Part shown: piece after piece, positions 4,722-17,590 of the stretch
How the letters are laid out: each line of letters opens with the position of its first letter
How positions within the stretch are numbered: the stretch's first letter is position 1
Source of the DNA: a virus
Length of the DNA stretch: 64,000 bases
IMG/VR virus record: IMGVR_UViG_3300017971_000037
Span: 1 to 64,000 of that record
Strand: one strand, 5' to 3'
Translations under genes and position numbers: made by a program
The notes under the pieces: generated by a model
Seen by the model: the letters and a program-made list of their open reading frames with translations, nothing else
What the model was told of the DNA's origin: nothing
The model's database searches: none

Positions 4722-5621
4722 ATGCGTGGATTTATTTGTGCCCTCTTCATCATTGGCCTGCTGCTGACGGCACAGGCTCACACGGCCAGCGCCCAGACCC
4801 TGGACATCGGTCTCTGCTACACGGACGCCTTTCAGGCCCAGTTCGCTGCCTTCGACTCGCCCTCCGCAGCCGAGTTCGATCCGCCGTCGAGCCGAGTGGG
4901 GATCATGCCCAACGTGGCGGCTCTCTTCACGGACGGCTCCTGCTTCCTGATGGAGTTCACCATCGGATCGTTCGCTCCGAACGACTTCGGTGGCGATCAG
5001 AACATCCTCTACACGGGGGACCTCGATGGGGCCATCGTCTTCGAGGGGGAGATCTACGCCCCGTCCCCGTTCAACGAGGTCCGATCCGGCGATCAGGCCC
5101 TGTGCGAGCCGAATTGCCCGATCTCGGACCCGCCCGGAGGTGGTATCGCCCTCTGGCAGCCGGTGACCCCCGTCGGAGAGTTCGTCGAGGTCATTGGGGC
5201 TGAGGCCACCATCGTCGTGGACGACGTTCGCCTCTCGGCTCCGCTGATCCTCTTCGACGTGGATGCCGGGGCCTACCCGTTCGGCGATCCGAATCCCACC
5301 TACGCGGACCTGCTCAACTCGGACAACGTCTACGTGAAGTTCGGGGCAGACGAGGTGATCCCCACCGGCACGGACCAGTTCGTGGCGCTCCAGGTGAACA
5401 CACTTTCCGTTCCCGAGCCGGCGATGGCGTCCGGTCTTGTCGCCGGGATCCTCGCCCTGGTGCTCCTGGGCGCGGGTGCCGCTCGCGCGAACGACGAGAA
5501 GGTGATGGAGGATCTTCGTGACGACCTTCAGGTTTGCGAGGACACGTCCTACACCGACGAAGCGCTGCGCGAGTGCGAGCGCGAAGTGGTCGCGGAGGCT
5601 GTGAAGCGACTCGAGAAGTAA
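4722..5621 (+). CDS. Secreted PEP-CTERM-like protein with C-terminal extension
   Basis: This 299-aa protein has a clear signal peptide (residues 1-24, hydrophobic core LFIIGLLLTAQA, likely cut after ASA). A beta-rich acidic extracytoplasmic domain with six Cys follows. Near residues 230-258 it has VPEPAMASGL and a hydrophobic helix ending GAARAN, which is the layout of a PEP-CTERM sorting signal. Unusually, 44 more residues of acidic helix with a Cys pair follow, whereas a normal signal ends after a few Arg. It could be an exosortase substrate or simply a membrane-anchored protein with a cytoplasmic tail. Its ligand is unknown. Confidence 0.7.
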   Translation: MRGFICALFIIGLLLTAQAHTASAQTLDIGLCYTDAFQAQFAAFDSPSAAEFDPPSSRVGIMPNVAALFTDGSCFLMEFTIGSFAPNDFGGDQNILYTGDLDGAIVFEGEIYAPSPFNEVRSGDQALCEPNCPISDPPGGGIALWQPVTPVGEFVEVIGAEATIVVDDVRLSAPLILFDVDAGAYPFGDPNPTYADLLNSDNVYVKFGADEVIPTGTDQFVALQVNTLSVPEPAMASGLVAGILALVLLGAGAARANDEKVMEDLRDDLQVCEDTSYTDEALRECEREVVAEAVKRLEK

Positions 5622-6879: not shown

Positions 6880-7091
6880 GCTGCGGCGACTGCAAGCACG
6901 TCCGGACGGTCCTGCACGCCCCGTTCGTGCCCGAGACCGTGAAGGTCACGTTCCACTGGCGCCCGCCGTTCATCCGGCGCGAGGTGATCACCCACGATCG
7001 GATCCGCATGGACTGGTGCCATCGCTATCCGAAGTCGGTGCTCGCGAAGCACAAGTGCGGAGAGTACGAGCCGATGGAGGCGAACTTATGA
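6876..7091 (+). CDS. Small zinc-ribbon-like protein (71 aa)
   Basis: Four Cys are arranged as CGDC at the start, DWCHRYP and HKCGEYEP at the end. This is the spacing of a common small phage zinc protein family (CxxC, then CxxxP, then CGE). Stop-start coupling exists on both sides. Function is unknown. Confidence 0.7.
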   Translation: MSCGDCKHVRTVLHAPFVPETVKVTFHWRPPFIRREVITHDRIRMDWCHRYPKSVLAKHKCGEYEPMEANL

Positions 7092-7480
7092 GGATCCTCG
7101 TCTGTGGCAGCCGCGGCGCCAGCACGTCCTTCGTGGTCGATCGCTTGGACCACCTGCTAGGCCAGGTGTACAGGGGCACGAAGACGATCATCCACGGCGC
7201 AGCCCGGGGCGCCGACACCGGCGCTGGCATGCTCGCCCGCCACCTGGGCCTCTTCGAGGAGTCCTACCCGGCTGCCTGGGAGCGCGACGGGAAGGCCGCC
7301 GGCCCGATCCGGAACCAGCGCATGCTGGACGAAGGCGATCCCGACCGCGTCATCGCGTTCTGGGACGGGAAGTCGAAGGGCACGCTGGACATGATCTCGC
7401 GAGCGACCGCCGCGGGAATCCAGGTCTGGATCGAACCGCTCCAGAGCCAAGAGCCGGCGCAGGGGGAGCTGGGGCTATGA
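7088..7480 (+). CDS. SLOG/Rossmann-type nucleotide-binding protein (130 aa)
   Basis: The N-terminus MRILVCGSRGAS and the later HGAARGADTGAGMLA match the small SLOG family once called DUF2493, whose members are predicted to bind nucleotide-derived ligands. WERDGKAAGPIRNQRML and a C-terminal KGTLDMISRATAAGI complete the fold. The start is the ATG coupled to the previous stop. Similar proteins are frequent in phages; the ligand and role are not established. Confidence 0.8.
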   Translation: MRILVCGSRGASTSFVVDRLDHLLGQVYRGTKTIIHGAARGADTGAGMLARHLGLFEESYPAAWERDGKAAGPIRNQRMLDEGDPDRVIAFWDGKSKGTLDMISRATAAGIQVWIEPLQSQEPAQGELGL

Positions 7481-9695: not shown

Positions 9696-10250
9696 ATGGA
9701 TGCAGCTCTCGGGTGGATCGGTGACCTCGTCAGATACTTCGCGCGCCTGGTGCCTCGGCTCCAACTCGTGCGCATTACCGAGCGGGCGGTCAAGTTCCGC
9801 CGCGCGAAAGCGCTGGAGGTCGGACCTGGGCTTCACTGGTGGTGGCCTGTGACGACCGAGATGGACGTCTACCCGGTGGTCCGGCAGATCGTGAGCCTCG
9901 AGCAGCAGATGATGCAGACCGAGGACGGGAAGACCTTGGTGGTCGATGGCGTCATCGTCTACTCGATCACCGACCTCTACACCTTCTGCGTCGAGAACCA
10001 CGACGCCGAGGAGAACATGGCGGAGCTGGCCCAGGCGGGCATGCGGAAGGCGGTGCTCTCGACGACCATGGAAGAGATCGGCGCCGGCCGTGCGAAGTTC
10101 GACCATCGCCTGACGCGCGAGGCGCAGAAAAGTCTGAGTGGATTCGGCGTCGAGATCGAATCAATGCGACTCCAAAGCTGCGCGGAAGGCACTGTACATA
10201 TACACGCGGGCGCGGCCGTGACGATCGGCATCGCAGCAGGAGGCGAATAA
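9696..10250 (+). CDS. SPFH/band-7 domain protein (184 aa)
   Basis: The segment from ITERAVKFRRAKALEVGPG to DGVIVYSITD matches the SPFH (stomatin/prohibitin/flotillin) domain: the GLHWWWP turn, a basic residue region, then a doublet of strands. An amphipathic N-terminus (LGWIGDLVRYFARLV) could lie on the membrane. The C-terminal helix expected in SPFH proteins is present but short. Such proteins form large membrane rings and control proteases such as FtsH. A phage copy may act on host membrane proteases or lysis timing; that is inference. Confidence 0.7.
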   Translation: MDAALGWIGDLVRYFARLVPRLQLVRITERAVKFRRAKALEVGPGLHWWWPVTTEMDVYPVVRQIVSLEQQMMQTEDGKTLVVDGVIVYSITDLYTFCVENHDAEENMAELAQAGMRKAVLSTTMEEIGAGRAKFDHRLTREAQKSLSGFGVEIESMRLQSCAEGTVHIHAGAAVTIGIAAGGE

Positions 10251-12179: not shown

Positions 12180-13166
12180 ATGGGCTACATCACCTACACG
12201 CATGTGGAGCGACTCGGCCACCCGAACGTCGACGGCCTGCTGATCGGCGACTGCTACATCTTCCCGAAGCTCGACGGCGCGAACGCTGTGCTCTGGAGCG
12301 ATCGGGAGAAGGGCGGCGTATGCACAGGCTCGAGACGGCGCGACCTCACGGTAGAAGGCTCGGCCGACAACCACGGCTTCCGTGCGACCATGCAGGAGCT
12401 GTGGAATAACGGCGACCTGGAGTGGATCCAGGACACCTACGATGGCGTGAAGTTCCCGATCTTCTACGGCGAGTGGATGGTGCCGCACACTCTGAAGACC
12501 TACCGGGAGGACGCCTGGCGTCGCTTCTACGTCTTCGATGCGCGATGCCCAGACACGGGACGCTACCTACACTACGACACCTGGGCTCCCCAGCTGATCG
12601 AGTATTACGGTCACGTCGTCGAGCCGCTCGCGAAGATCACGAACCCGACGGAAGAGGACATCGTCCGGATGCGGGACGTCATCAACACCTACCTGATCTC
12701 CGAGAACAGCGGAGTCGGGGAGGGCGTGGTCGTCAAGAACTACGACTTCGTCAACCACGTCGGCAAGACGGTCTGGGGCAAGAGCGTCCGCAACGACTTC
12801 AAGGAAGACAACAAGCGTGCGTTCGGGACCCCGGAGCATCAAGGCAGCTTCCAGGTCGAGTGCGCGATCGCCGAGGAGTACGTCACCCAGGCGTTCGTCG
12901 AGAAGACGCGAGCGAAGATCGTGATGGCCATGGCTGAGCAGGCCTGGAGAGACGATCCGGCGCTCCGGGACATGAGCGCTCAGCGGATCGCTGACGCTCA
13001 ACGGGGCTCTCTGATCCCCCGGCTGCTGGAGACCGTCTTCCACGAGCTGCTCGACGAAGAGACGGCGGCGTTCGTGAAGAAGCACAAGAACCCGACGATC
13101 GACTTCAAGAAGCTGCGCGGGTTCGTTGTCGCGCAGGTGAAGAAGCACGCTGGCGACCTGTTCTAG
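12180..13166 (+). CDS. RNA ligase, Rnl2-type (328 aa)
   Basis: The adenylation motif KLDGAN has its nucleophile at K30. Motif IV is visible as EGVVVKNYDF near residue 180 and motif V as KTVWGKSV near 200. The C-terminal third is helical, as in T4 Rnl2-like ligases, which seal nicks or ends in RNA using ATP. The gene ends 6 bp before a tRNA-like gene. That pairing fits repair or maintenance of a phage tRNA, for example after anticodon nuclease attack. ATG 12180 is 1 nt after the previous stop. Confidence 0.85.
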   Translation: MGYITYTHVERLGHPNVDGLLIGDCYIFPKLDGANAVLWSDREKGGVCTGSRRRDLTVEGSADNHGFRATMQELWNNGDLEWIQDTYDGVKFPIFYGEWMVPHTLKTYREDAWRRFYVFDARCPDTGRYLHYDTWAPQLIEYYGHVVEPLAKITNPTEEDIVRMRDVINTYLISENSGVGEGVVVKNYDFVNHVGKTVWGKSVRNDFKEDNKRAFGTPEHQGSFQVECAIAEEYVTQAFVEKTRAKIVMAMAEQAWRDDPALRDMSAQRIADAQRGSLIPRLLETVFHELLDEETAAFVKKHKNPTIDFKKLRGFVVAQVKKHAGDLF

Positions 13167-13172
13167 GTCATC

Positions 13173-13252
13173 TGGGGCGTAGCTCAAGGGCAAGAGCACT
13201 GGCCATCTGCAGTATACGGCCAGCGACGCGGGTTGGAGTCCCGCCGCCTCAG
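13173..13252 (+). tRNA. tRNA-Cys(GCA)-like gene with extended anticodon arm
   Basis: A cloverleaf can be drawn. The acceptor stem TGGGGCG pairs with CGCCTCA (13173-13179 with 13245-13251, one G-T pair). The D-arm is GCTC/GAGC and the T-arm GCGGG/CCCGC. The anticodon stem is 8 bp with a 2-nt bulge (13199-13206 with 13214-13223), carrying a 7-nt loop CTGCAGT with U33 and anticodon GCA at 13209-13211. A normal stem is 5 bp. The T-loop reads TTGGAGT, lacking the usual C56. No CCA is encoded. It may be an unusual functional tRNA, a decoy, or a decaying gene. Confidence 0.55.
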
Positions 13253-13287
13253 TGCTAGCCTGGCGCCTCCCTACACAGGAGGCTGTC

Positions 13288-14019
13288 ATGCTGACCCGAC
13301 TTCTCGCTCTCTTCGTCCTGCTCTTTGCGCTGCCCAGCGGGGCGGCGGTCTTTTCCGAGACCCAGAACTCGATCACGTTCACGTCGAACAACCCGTTCGG
13401 CTCGAGCCCGTCGCTCGTCGACCCGGCGTTCTTCGCCGAGTTCCCCTTGGGCGTGAACCCGTTCACGATCAGCTCCAGCTACGACGATGCGGCTTCGACG
13501 TTCGACCAGTGCTTCGGACCTGGCATCGACGACTGCTACCTGGTCACTACCTCGGGCGCGACGTTGTCGATCACGCTTGCCGGCGAGACGTTCACCCAGG
13601 CGGACTTCGACTTCACGAACGCATTCCTGACGCCAGCCGAGGCGAACAGCTTCGACCCGATCGACGGCGCGGTCTTCCCTGCGCTGGTGACGACCGACGT
13701 CGCCGGAATCAGCTCGGTGAACACGCTTGGCACGGCCAACGTGAACCGCTTCGGCCTGCTCGATCGGTGGTCGCTCGAAGGCGTCGTCCTCCAGGTGAGC
13801 CTACCTGAGGCGTCGAACCTGCTGCCCGATCCGCTCGGCTTCGACGGCTTCAACTTCTACACGCAGGGCGTCGATCGCACCGGCGCGTTGATCATCTACG
13901 ACAACGTGCTGGACCAGACCGGCTACGCGTTCATCACGAACCCGGAGCCCGGGGCGGCGGTGCTGATGGGCCTGGGGCTCATGGGGCTCGCCGGGCTCAG
14001 CAAGCGCAAGCGGGTCTGA
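13288..14019 (+). CDS. PEP-CTERM sorted surface protein (243 aa)
   Basis: This is a textbook architecture for an exosortase substrate. The signal peptide MLTRLLALFVLLFALPSGAA is followed by a beta-rich, Ser/Thr/Asp-rich domain with two Cys. The C-terminal tail starts NPEPG (PEP at 219-221), continues as a Gly/Leu helix and ends in KRKRV. In bacteria an exosortase (EpsH/XrtA) recognises this tail after Sec export. ATG 13288 follows a perfect AGGAGG by 5 nt, so the in-frame GTG at 13252 is rejected. No exosortase gene is in the window, so host processing is inferred. It is the last gene on the plus strand before the convergent junction. Confidence 0.85.
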   Translation: MLTRLLALFVLLFALPSGAAVFSETQNSITFTSNNPFGSSPSLVDPAFFAEFPLGVNPFTISSSYDDAASTFDQCFGPGIDDCYLVTTSGATLSITLAGETFTQADFDFTNAFLTPAEANSFDPIDGAVFPALVTTDVAGISSVNTLGTANVNRFGLLDRWSLEGVVLQVSLPEASNLLPDPLGFDGFNFYTQGVDRTGALIIYDNVLDQTGYAFITNPEPGAAVLMGLGLMGLAGLSKRKRV

Positions 14020-14026
14020 TTTCGAC

Positions 14027-14311
14027 CTAGTTCGGGAGTGCGGTGTTCACGTCTGCGAGGTCGAGCGACTGCCCCTGGGCCTGCAGCAGCGCCACGTAGA
14101 TCGGCTCCACCAGCGGCGTTCCCGACAGCACGAGCGCCATCAGCATCGCGTGTGAATGGCCGATCGAGACGGCGTCCATGTCCCCCGGCAGGTAGAGGCA
14201 GAGGCTGCCGTCAGCTCGAGTCACGATCGCGGCGTCGCCTTCGCTCAACTCGATCTGGCTCTCTTCGCTCCACGTCCGCTTCGTGACTGTCGTGTAGTCC
14301 TGATTCTTCAA
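14027..14311 (-). CDS. Hypothetical protein (94 aa), uncertain start
   Basis: The frame has normal protein-like composition (EESQIELSEGDAAIVTRADG). It has only a TTG start at 14311, and the open frame continues about 24 codons further upstream with equally plausible residues (TDAIGEPWTEKLKN). The true start may therefore lie upstream, or translation may shift into it from the overlapping frame at 14211-14438. It is the final gene of the minus-strand transcript, 7 bp from the convergent PEP-CTERM gene. No family is recognised. Confidence 0.5.
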   Translation of the reverse strand: MKNQDYTTVTKRTWSEESQIELSEGDAAIVTRADGSLCLYLPGDMDAVSIGHSHAMLMALVLSGTPLVEPIYVALLQAQGQSLDLADVNTALPN

Positions 14312-14438
14312 CTTCTCGGTCCAGGGCTCGCCGATCGCGTCGGTAGCCTTTGTGGCCGTGCCTCCCGCCCCTGGGCATGTCCCGGTGGAGCTGGCGAGAC
14401 CGGCGTTTGATTGCCTTCAGCGTGTCGTCCGACGCCAT
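14211..14438 (-). CDS. Basic frame overlapping two genes (75 aa), doubtful
   Basis: The ATG at 14438 lies in the tail of the PEP-CTERM gene. The first 30 residues look plausible (MASDDTLKAIKRRSRQLHRD), but the rest is Arg-rich and resembles an out-of-frame reading of the next gene. One explanation is a single gene whose frame changes near 14350, by sequencing error or a natural shift. Confidence 0.3.
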   Translation of the reverse strand: MASDDTLKAIKRRSRQLHRDMPRGGRHGHKGYRRDRRALDREVEESGLHDSHEADVERREPDRVERRRRRDRDSS

Positions 14439-14923
14439 CCCGCCACCGCCAGGCCCAGGATACCAAGAACGAGCAGGAGCAGCATCCCAGGTTCGGGCAC
14501 GTACTCCTTCGAGGTCTGCATCGGAAGGTGGTTGCTGTTTCCGCTCTCCACGACCGCGTGCTCCGCCTCGAATTCGGCGAGCTGCTCCGGCGTCCATGTC
14601 TGAACGGCCCGCAAGGCGTTGAACCCTTCCGGGTAGGGCTTGCCGGCGTGCGCCTTGCAGACGAGCGGCCCTTCGTCGCCTCCGCCGTAGCGGATCGTTT
14701 CGAGGCGGCCCAGGAGCGTCCCATCGGGCTGCTCGCGGATGTTCGTGAGGAAGTTGCAGCGGCGCCCGTCGACGCTGTGCTGGCTCGGGTAGCAGCAGCT
14801 CCAGGCTTTGACGACGCGCTCGTCGCCCTCGACTGCCGGCGGCTGGTACAGGTGGACGTCGAACTTCTCGTGGACGGCCGGGATCTCAGGCCAGTCTTCC
14901 GGGTGGGCTTCACTGTGGGGCAT
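14417..14923 (-). CDS. PEP-CTERM-tailed protein without obvious signal peptide (168 aa)
   Basis: The C-terminus is a classic PEP-CTERM tail: YVPEPG (PEP at 143-145), a Leu-rich helix, then GWRRTTR. The N-terminus (MPHSEAHPEDWPEI) is polar and has no hydrophobic stretch, so a Sec signal is not visible. The middle has five Cys (CCYP, RRCNF, LVCKAHAG) and TWTPEQLAEFEAEH. The ATG overlaps the upstream gene by 14 nt. The upstream gene encodes a membrane protein that might help its export. It could also be a tail-anchored protein. Confidence 0.7.
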   Translation of the reverse strand: MPHSEAHPEDWPEIPAVHEKFDVHLYQPPAVEGDERVVKAWSCCYPSQHSVDGRRCNFLTNIREQPDGTLLGRLETIRYGGGDEGPLVCKAHAGKPYPEGFNALRAVQTWTPEQLAEFEAEHAVVESGNSNHLPMQTSKEYVPEPGMLLLLVLGILGLAVAGWRRTTR

Positions 14924-15239
14924 TGCAGGCTCCTGTCGTGTCGATGTATAGGGTAGCGTGTCCGCCTACGGTCACATCGTCTGTGTCCCACCGCTCGGTG
15001 CCCAGCGCCTGCTGGCCGTCGCTGCGGGACCCGTTGATTCCGATCTCCGCCCCGCTGATGCAGGGGTTGTGGTGGCATGCGACCTGAAGAACCGCTAGCG
15101 CTCCGAGGGTCATCCACGTCATCCAGGTGATGCGGTCTCCACCGAACATCCGATGCCCGGTCTCCGCAACGCATGCGATGGTCAGGACGAACGGCAGGCC
15201 GTAGATCACGACGCCCAGGAAGTGCAGTGTCGATTCCAT
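14910..15239 (-). CDS. Membrane protein (109 aa)
   Basis: The ATG at 15239 overlaps the primase stop (TGATG), and the longer upstream frame is rejected. Two hydrophobic helices (LHFLGVVIYGLPFVLTIACV and MTWMTLGALAVLQVAC) are followed by a soluble tail with Cys residues and DVTVGGHATLYIDTTGAC. It directly precedes, and is coupled to, the PEP-CTERM-tailed protein, so a joint role at the envelope is plausible. Confidence 0.6.
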   Translation of the reverse strand: MESTLHFLGVVIYGLPFVLTIACVAETGHRMFGGDRITWMTWMTLGALAVLQVACHHNPCISGAEIGINGSRSDGQQALGTERWDTDDVTVGGHATLYIDTTGACNAPQ

Positions 15240-17590
15240 CAGAAGATGTCCTCCTGCTCCGGGCCGGGAAGTTCGATCTCCTCTTCGGGCTCTTCCCCGA
15301 CCCAATCACCCTGACCATAGACCTCGACCCACCTCTCGCGGCAATCCTCGAGGTCCATGAACTGGTAGACCTTCCGACGGCCCGTCGAGACCGACGAGTT
15401 GCCCTTCTTCACCGGAGCGACCTTGCTCAGGAAGCGACCCCAGTGAACGCGCGTCTTCGGGTTTCGGAAGCTCTTGCGCTTCGTGTACTCCAGGTAGTCC
15501 TGGTAGAGGGTGTCAGTCAGCACGACCTGCGGCCACGGCACGCTGCCAGGATCGTCGTCGAGCATGCGGCCCTCGACCAGCTTGTCGAACCACCACTGTT
15601 CCTCGGTGTCGTAGCTCTGCATCTGCTGCTCCTGCAGCGCCATCGTCGTCGGAACGTGGCGGACATCAAAGCCGGAAAGATCGTAGTTGAGCAGGTTGTA
15701 GAGAAACCCCTCTCGCCCTCCGTTGTCCATCTGCTGTTGAATCGCACCGAAGTACTCAGCGTCCCGGGCCCGTGCATCGCTCACGTCAAGAACGAGGAAG
15801 CGGCGCTCGCTCCGACTGTGGGCCGGAACGACCCAGTCATGGTTCGAGGCCATCATGAGGTGCAGGCAGTTAGTCGCGGTTTCGATGTCGACGCCCTTGG
15901 CCTCGATCTGCATCGTATCCTCGGTGACGATCATCTTCAGCACGCCTTCGTGCTTCTTGTCGCCGGCGTAGAAGGCCTCGTCCGCGAAGATGAAGACGCA
16001 GTCCCGGAGGTGGGCGTTGAAGTTCCCGACGAGCTGGCTGGAGTGTCCGACCTGCATGTAGTGTCGGCCCAGGAGGGCCCCGAGCTGCTTCGCGAGGAAC
16101 GACTTCCCCGTCCCCTGCTGGCCGCGCATCACGATTGCCGTCTGCCCAGGCTCGCCGGGATGCTGGATCATTCGGGCCATCCAGCCCATTACGTATTCGA
16201 AGTAGGTGTCCTTGCCTTGGCAGACGTTTTCGCGGATGTGCTCTTCGAGCTTGTCCCACCGCCCCGGGCGTGCTTCACAGGAGAAGCCTCTCCAGAGGTT
16301 GTACGAGTCCGGCACTTCCTGGTTCGGAACGAAGATGACCCGCTTGAACTGTCGCCGGTCCGGATGCTTCAGCCACCAGTCGCCCAGGGGCATGTACTTC
16401 GGGTTCCCGTCCTTGTCGGACCCGACCTCCACCCGTCGGTTCATGTGCGCGTTCTTGAAGTCGCCGAAGCTCATTGACGAGAGGCGCGAGCGCCGGAGGA
16501 TCGGATCGTCCAGCTCTTCGATCACGCGGCAGCGTCCCCCGAAGTTCTCGATCACCGAGTAGCGGTCATTCATCGCCGCCAGGTTCGGATCGATCGCGAA
16601 TTCCTTCGCCTTCCCGATCTGGCGTTTCGCATAGCTTTCGACGTTCGCGCCCTTGTCGAGCACTGAGTCGCTGATGCCGAAGTCCGGGTCCGTGATCAGC
16701 GAGAAGATGACCTCGTCGGGCACGTTGCAGCGAACAAGGTTGCAGACGCAATCGAATAGCCAGCTCGATCGCGAGTCGTCTTCCTTGGGCGGTTCGTCGG
16801 GATGCCGCCCCTGGACGATGATGACCTTCACACGGTCGGGCACGTCCCACTCGTCCAGCTCGTCCATCGTGGCGATGCGGGCAATGTTTCCGCTGATCTC
16901 GACCGTCTGGGACGACGCTCCGAACAGCTCGTTCGTCTGCGTGGGCGCGGCCGGCGTGAACTGCGAGAGCGAGTAGATCCGGCTCTGGTCGAAGACCTCG
17001 ACCTTCGCCAGCTCCTCGCTCCGACCCTTCGCGCGCTTCTTCGCGTCGGGGACGTTGACGGTCCCTGGCAGCCGCATGATGCGATCGACGTTGTGGCAGT
17101 TGTCCGCGCCGAAGAGCAGCTCGAGCTGCAGGTTCCAGCGCTTCGCGGTCTCGGCCAGGCCGACGTCGCCGTTGATCTCGAACTCCTCATCGAGCCGCCA
17201 GAAGCCTTGGTAGCCGCCGCCCGAGAAGATGACCGCCGTGGGCTTCGGAACGCCGGCCGGCGGATCCAGCAGCTGGGTCAGGGCGCGCTCTCGCTCTGCT
17301 TGGAGATCCTGACCGTCACGCGGGTCGACGTCGACGTGCAGCCAGCGCATGCCCCGCATGTCCTCGCGGAGTGCCTTCTTGTCCATCGGTCCACGCGTCG
17401 GGTTGACGTGGAAGTAGATGTTGCGGGTGCCGTTGTACTTCTCGATCCACTCCGCGCATTCGGTGTCCGTCTCGGCCTCGAACGTCGCGGTGGTGATCGC
17501 CTTGCGATCCACGGCGATCGCAGTCAGCACCCAGAGCCCAGAGGGCTCGTACTGCTTCAGGAACTCGATTGCTGCCGGGGTATCGGTCAT
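15239..17590 (-). CDS. Primase-helicase (D5/P4-type, 783 aa)
   Basis: The N-terminal part is a primase-polymerase (AEP)-like domain with MRWLHVDVDPRDG (metal-binding DxD), IFSGGGYQGFWRL and NVDRIMRLPGTVN. The C-terminal half is an SF3-like ATPase with Walker A GQQGTGKSF near residue 493 and FIFADEAFYAG near 535, then the ATNCLHLMMASN segment typical of the DUF5906/P4 group. It should synthesise primers and unwind at the fork, together with the polymerase at 19,056-21,137. It is coupled at both ends to its neighbours. Confidence 0.85.
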   Translation of the reverse strand: MTDTPAAIEFLKQYEPSGLWVLTAIAVDRKAITTATFEAETDTECAEWIEKYNGTRNIYFHVNPTRGPMDKKALREDMRGMRWLHVDVDPRDGQDLQAERERALTQLLDPPAGVPKPTAVIFSGGGYQGFWRLDEEFEINGDVGLAETAKRWNLQLELLFGADNCHNVDRIMRLPGTVNVPDAKKRAKGRSEELAKVEVFDQSRIYSLSQFTPAAPTQTNELFGASSQTVEISGNIARIATMDELDEWDVPDRVKVIIVQGRHPDEPPKEDDSRSSWLFDCVCNLVRCNVPDEVIFSLITDPDFGISDSVLDKGANVESYAKRQIGKAKEFAIDPNLAAMNDRYSVIENFGGRCRVIEELDDPILRRSRLSSMSFGDFKNAHMNRRVEVGSDKDGNPKYMPLGDWWLKHPDRRQFKRVIFVPNQEVPDSYNLWRGFSCEARPGRWDKLEEHIRENVCQGKDTYFEYVMGWMARMIQHPGEPGQTAIVMRGQQGTGKSFLAKQLGALLGRHYMQVGHSSQLVGNFNAHLRDCVFIFADEAFYAGDKKHEGVLKMIVTEDTMQIEAKGVDIETATNCLHLMMASNHDWVVPAHSRSERRFLVLDVSDARARDAEYFGAIQQQMDNGGREGFLYNLLNYDLSGFDVRHVPTTMALQEQQMQSYDTEEQWWFDKLVEGRMLDDDPGSVPWPQVVLTDTLYQDYLEYTKRKSFRNPKTRVHWGRFLSKVAPVKKGNSSVSTGRRKVYQFMDLEDCRERWVEVYGQGDWVGEEPEEEIELPGPEQEDIF

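Follow-up and report, generated by a model that had tools for sequence, protein, structure and literature searches.

Can a phage encode proteins that are addressed to the exosortase of its bacterial host? The question is raised by a gene at positions 13288-14019 (plus strand) of the window, i.e. the 64,000-nucleotide stretch of viral DNA analysed here, which the initial annotation described as a phage-encoded "textbook" PEP-CTERM protein. The reading favoured here is that a lineage of tailed phages makes proteins meant for the exosortase of a Gram-negative host, by which the surface of the infected cell would be changed. We regard this reading as moderately probable, and the status of the proteins as putative exosortase substrates as well supported by their sequences.

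The gene, P0001, encodes 243 amino acids: a signal peptide, a unique body of 200 residues and a PEP-CTERM tail composed of NPEPG, a hydrophobic helix and KRKRV. AGGAGG is located five bases 5' of the ATG, in agreement with the perfect ribosome-binding site claimed for the gene; P0001 is also, as stated before, the last gene of the plus-strand run, followed by a convergent minus-strand block, and its codon usage is phage-like. Upstream lies an RNA ligase gene (12180-13166, plus strand), with a tRNA-Gln directly after it (ARAGORN; 12180-13253 together with the ligase gene; no Rfam match at the gathering threshold); the two are possibly a tRNA repair pair. The N-terminus of P0001, MLTRLLALFVLLFALPSGAA followed by V, resembles a Sec signal peptide by inspection and hydropathy: the hydrophobic segment ends in SGAA, with small residues at the putative cleavage site. 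The C-terminal tail, ITNPEPGAAVLMGLGLMGLAGLSKRKRV (PEP-CTERM segment at 13942-14016, plus strand), is accepted by TIGR02595 (cut-off 16 bits) with 22.8 bits in the genome search and 18.6 bits as protein. For Pfam it is a borderline case, since PF07589 (cut-off 20.7 bits) passes in the genome search (22.6 bits) and misses for the whole protein (18.5 bits). The textbook label holds for the tail and the signal peptide, but the beta-rich domain that went with it is not confirmed: AlphaFold2 on the single sequence gave no usable model (pLDDT 35). Searches of IMG/VR, GenBank phages and GTDB genomes yielded no relative of P0001 within their sensitivity, and the related phages (G001 and shorter relatives) contain no counterpart. 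Selection on the P0001 tail is therefore not demonstrable, and the evidence of conservation comes from a different gene, at 14417-14923 (locus B).

The virus record from which the window is taken (69,649 bp) is that of a tailed phage, with genes for large terminase, portal and tape measure proteins, and it also encodes a DNA polymerase A, a DUF5906 primase, a ribonucleotide reductase, a Dda-like helicase and a T5 A1-like DNA transfer protein. For the polymerase and the DNA transfer protein, the best database relatives come from phages infecting Gram-negative bacteria; a host search via a phage protein against bacterial genomes gave no match. Most genes of the record are collinear with those of G001 (IMGVR_UViG_3300011258_001374; 70,652 bp), the identities being 87% for the terminase, 80% for the primase and 81% for the polymerase. 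Host contamination or a mis-binned contig is ruled out by the portal, terminase and tape measure genes as well as by the gene-by-gene synteny with this 70.7 kb relative. Four of the five relatives compared are fragments: G002 (33.8 kb), G003 (12.3 kb), G008 (4.1 kb) and G009 (9.1 kb). In the collection scans, confirmation by tblastn with a short query missed at least one known member (G008), so that relatives beyond these five may exist. Elsewhere in the window, an SPFH/Band 7 (stomatin-like) protein (9696-10250, plus strand; PF01145, 72.7 bits) is unusually conserved (81-88% in relatives), and a SLOG-family protein YAcAr (7088-7480, plus strand; PF10686) shows merely 31% identity in a relative. 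Beyond the window, the record contains a GP88 family protein (65770-66579 of the record, L003 6871-7680; PF17338) and a C-5 cytosine methylase (67853-68824, L003 8954-9925; PF00145).

P0001 is one of several tagged proteins. Seven tails in five related phage records exceed the TIGR02595 cut-off, and G000 (the window's own record) and G001 each encode two PEP-CTERM proteins. Different PEP-CTERM genes have unrelated bodies, the tail alone being common to them, and profile and structure searches indicated no function for these bodies. A rule combining PEP, a hydrophobic stretch and a basic C-end gave 7 hits among the 2,734 ORFs of the lineage, none among 67,276 ORFs from 60 third-order Markov windows and none among 1,113 ORFs of less related phages; because this rule was written after the tails had been seen, more weight is to be given to the scores of the curated HMMs. 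PF07589 detected no tails in four isolate relatives outside the lineage, and short tblastn searches detected no PEP-CTERM tails in GenBank phages, where the low-complexity filter may have masked the queries. Exosortase profiles (PF09721/TIGR02602) had no match at E 10 in G000, G001, G002, G008 and G009; as these phages encode no exosortase, a host enzyme would be required.

The second PEP-CTERM gene of the window lies 400 bp from P0001 on the opposite strand and was overlooked in the initial annotation; it is the stronger of the two by PF07589. This locus B gene (14417-14923, minus strand; P0002 family) encodes 168 residues: a fast-evolving body with paired cysteines and a conserved PEP-CTERM tail (14429-14500, minus strand; PF07589 24.1 bits, TIGR02595 21 bits). 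It is flanked on one side by a small membrane/lipoprotein-like gene (14910-15239, minus strand; counterparts in G001, G002 and G009, not seen in G008) and the DUF5906 primase-helicase gene (15239-17590, minus strand; 79-83% identical in relatives), which anchors the synteny, and on the other by a conserved 94-residue gene (14027-14311, minus strand; 63-73% identity) that serves as a marker of the lineage. Each of the four relatives whose sequence spans the locus (G001, G002, G008 and G009) has a homologue at this position. The tails are VPEPGMLLLLVLGILGLAVAGWRRTTR in the window, VPEPGLLLMLAIGILGLTVAGWRRKTP in G001, VPEPGLLVMLAMGVLALAVAGWRRKIR in G002, VPEPAFILLLGIGLLGLCFAAWRRKTQ in G008 and VPEPGLVLMLAIGVLCLATVGWRRRTQ in G009. 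In the genome search, all five exceed the cut-off of PF07589 (24.1 bits in the window; 27.1, 26.4, 32.5 and 24.2 bits in the relatives) and that of TIGR02595 (19-21 bits; 15.4-17.9 bits as whole proteins).

What is maintained at locus B is the peptide. Body and tail taken together, the proteins of the relatives are 30-37% identical to that of the window, whereas the tails alone are 66-69% identical to that of G001. VPEP is invariant in all five, its codons varying at third positions (GTG/GTA/GTC, CCC/CCG, GAA/GAG and CCT/CCC). In the 21 tail codons that precede the overlap with the following ORF, the frequency of silent differences is close to that of the body (pS 0.36-0.72 in the tail vs 0.56-0.80), while amino-acid differences are much rarer (pN 0.11-0.34 vs 0.35-0.65). 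Because silent sites in the tail, including the third positions of VPEP, vary as in the body and amino acids change far less, the codon comparison shows that the tail is conserved as peptide and not as DNA. Chance is rejected as the cause, since random ORFs gave no hits, and so is the overlap, since VPEP and the helix are located upstream of it and vary at silent sites. The overlapping ORF, MASDDTLKAIKRR..., begins within the final codons of the locus B gene (14380-14440); as the overlap is kept in relatives, both reading frames constrain the WRR part of the tail.

A hydrophobic N-terminus is absent from all five locus B proteins and also from the reading frame upstream of their starts. Fusion of locus B to the lipoprotein-like gene upstream through a programmed frameshift, which would supply a signal, is rejected because the relative frames differ among the phages and an upstream ORF of this kind was not seen in G008; for the same reasons, a spanin pair is unsupported. 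The bodies are acidic (net charge -4 to -12) and contain paired cysteines at 43/56 (G002), 41/54 (G009), 38/95 (G001) and 38/96 (G008); the window protein, with cysteines at 43, 44, 56 and 89, has both types of pair. These pairs would fit a disulphide-bearing extracytoplasmic domain and are suggestive only. The model of the body, of medium confidence (pLDDT 66), shows beta strands and has no significant match in PDB or BFVD.

The main alternative is competition for the exosortase: the phage tails would engage the host enzyme and thereby keep host PEP-CTERM proteins and matrix from being displayed, loosening the matrix for progeny release, with the locus B protein as the competitor. A body that lacks the usual export route and a tail conserved far better than that body are both as such a competitor would have them. 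The active site of exosortase is held to face the periplasm (PMC1569441), however, which would leave a cytoplasmic PEP motif out of reach, and a competitor would need no body with paired cysteines; we consider this explanation unlikely. The lack of a signal peptide, together with the 23-residue C-terminal helix predicted at residues 145-167, could also point to a plain membrane anchor, in which the tail serves for membrane insertion only and the PEP motif plays no part in sorting. An anchor of this kind does not account for a VPEP that stays invariant while its codons change silently, for tails over the curated PEP-CTERM cut-off in five of five phages, or for unrelated proteins of the same phages that bear the same module behind signal peptides, and it is quite improbable.

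A third position in these genomes, after the thymidylate synthase gene, behaves differently. Here (locus A), the window has gene 15 (4722-5621, plus strand), likewise overlooked in the initial annotation, which consists of a signal peptide (HTASA followed by Q), a body and SVPEPAMASGLVAGILALVLLGAGAARA, with an extension of about 45 mostly acidic residues at the end. It is PEP-like only: its SVPEP motif is internal and followed by a hydrophobic stretch, the basic cluster is absent, and the segment fails TIGR02595 (9.5 vs 16 bits; PF07589 8.3 bits). The acidic extension holds two cysteines, and no relatives of gene 15 were found in IMG/VR. At the same place, G001 encodes P0005 (16570-17343 of G001, minus strand), with a signal peptide, a body and ELPEPGLASSLLLGTLGLVAARKRRA; its tail exceeds the TIGR02595 cut-off in the genome search (16.2 bits), while hmmscan of the whole protein reported none. 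The bodies of gene 15 and P0005 are dissimilar, and in G002 thymidylate synthase is separated by 240 bases from the next recognised gene, leaving no room for a gene of their size. Signal-peptide/PEP proteins therefore come and go at locus A, whereas locus B is constant. Recent capture of host surface genes that bring the phage no benefit (hitch-hiking cargo) is a further alternative for P0001 and locus A. It would fit the finding that P0001 and gene 15 are among the genes without counterpart in relatives, but is hardly probable given that locus B is kept in every member covering its place, that a signal-peptide/PEP-like protein is found at locus A in two phages and that P0001 combines a strong ribosome-binding site with phage-like codon usage.

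Sorting by a host exosortase, the preferred reading, could proceed in the following manner: P0001 would be exported via Sec and its signal peptide removed. The C-terminal helix would then anchor it in the inner membrane such that the PEP motif faces the periplasm and the Lys/Arg cluster the cytoplasm; for a body located outside, a basic C-end is in keeping with the positive-inside rule, as far as the sequence tells. The host exosortase would cut P0001 at the motif and pass the body to the cell surface or the exopolysaccharide, where it may alter the surface of the infected cell, e.g. by receptor shielding or polysaccharide binding. The locus B protein, having the same tail and no cleavable signal peptide, would take a different route: the body is probably translocated as an N-terminal tail (N-out, C-in), a type of inner-membrane passage open to long N-terminal segments that have no signal peptide, as exemplified by E. 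coli ProW. We infer the host exosortase, the cleavage, the surface location and a benefit to the phage; superinfection exclusion or a shed decoy, both proposed for P0001 initially, are guesses as to the latter. A more far-reaching version, in which the lineage depends on the host exosortase and combines a conserved PEP-CTERM protein lacking a signal peptide with interchangeable ones bearing it, as a route to coat or unseal the infected-cell surface, is put forward tentatively.

Since several proteins are tagged and one of them is kept in every relative covering its locus, the data suggest that a small family of uncultured phages exploits the host's own sorting enzyme. Knowledge of the exosortase system comes almost entirely from the genomes of bacteria, plus a small number of genetic studies. 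In the literature on PEP-CTERM and exosortase in connection with phages or viral genomes, no paper on phage-encoded substrates was found; most subscription papers were outside the scope of this search, hence novelty is unproven. TIGR03118 proteins with a putative exosortase interaction domain are mentioned among the horizontally acquired genes in a study of hot-spring viruses (PMC11003980). Phages that keep the sorting tag under selection would show that the exosortase system matters at the interface of phage and cell. Their PEP-CTERM proteins would offer compact natural exosortase substrates, and the locus B family, lacking the signal peptide, would probe how the tail reaches the enzyme.

Superinfection-exclusion proteins of the envelope are encoded by other phages, such as Llp of T5. 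SieA of P22 (PMC10883804) is a further example. Llp and SieA are likewise phage-encoded envelope proteins, but have other anchors and no PEP-CTERM. The PepA protein of Aquincola, when overexpressed, turns soluble exopolysaccharide into bound (PMC9850573), and a PEP-CTERM protein of phage origin might, by analogy, act on the matrix or shield the receptors of the infected cell. P0001 and locus B match PepA-type flocculation proteins (NF033554) weakly and mostly in the tail (22 bits vs a cut-off of 80), i.e. they are not members and the PepA role is an analogy only. In the accepted model for cellular PEP-CTERM proteins, the motif is located at the periplasmic side and recognised there by EpsH/exosortase (PMC1569441). 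Unlike these proteins, the ones described here are encoded by phages without exosortase, and the locus B family is devoid of the signal peptide that is present in ~97% of PEP-CTERM proteins after start-site correction (Haft et al. 2006, PMC1569441). Cellular PEP-CTERM proteins have unrelated bodies, share the tail alone and are usually multi-copy where present (Haft et al. 2006, PMC1569441). The phage proteins resemble them in the same respects: bodies without mutual homology, more than one protein per genome, a signal peptide in P0001, and, as in proteins processed by exosortase, tails over the curated cut-off with PEP motif, hydrophobic helix and basic C-end.
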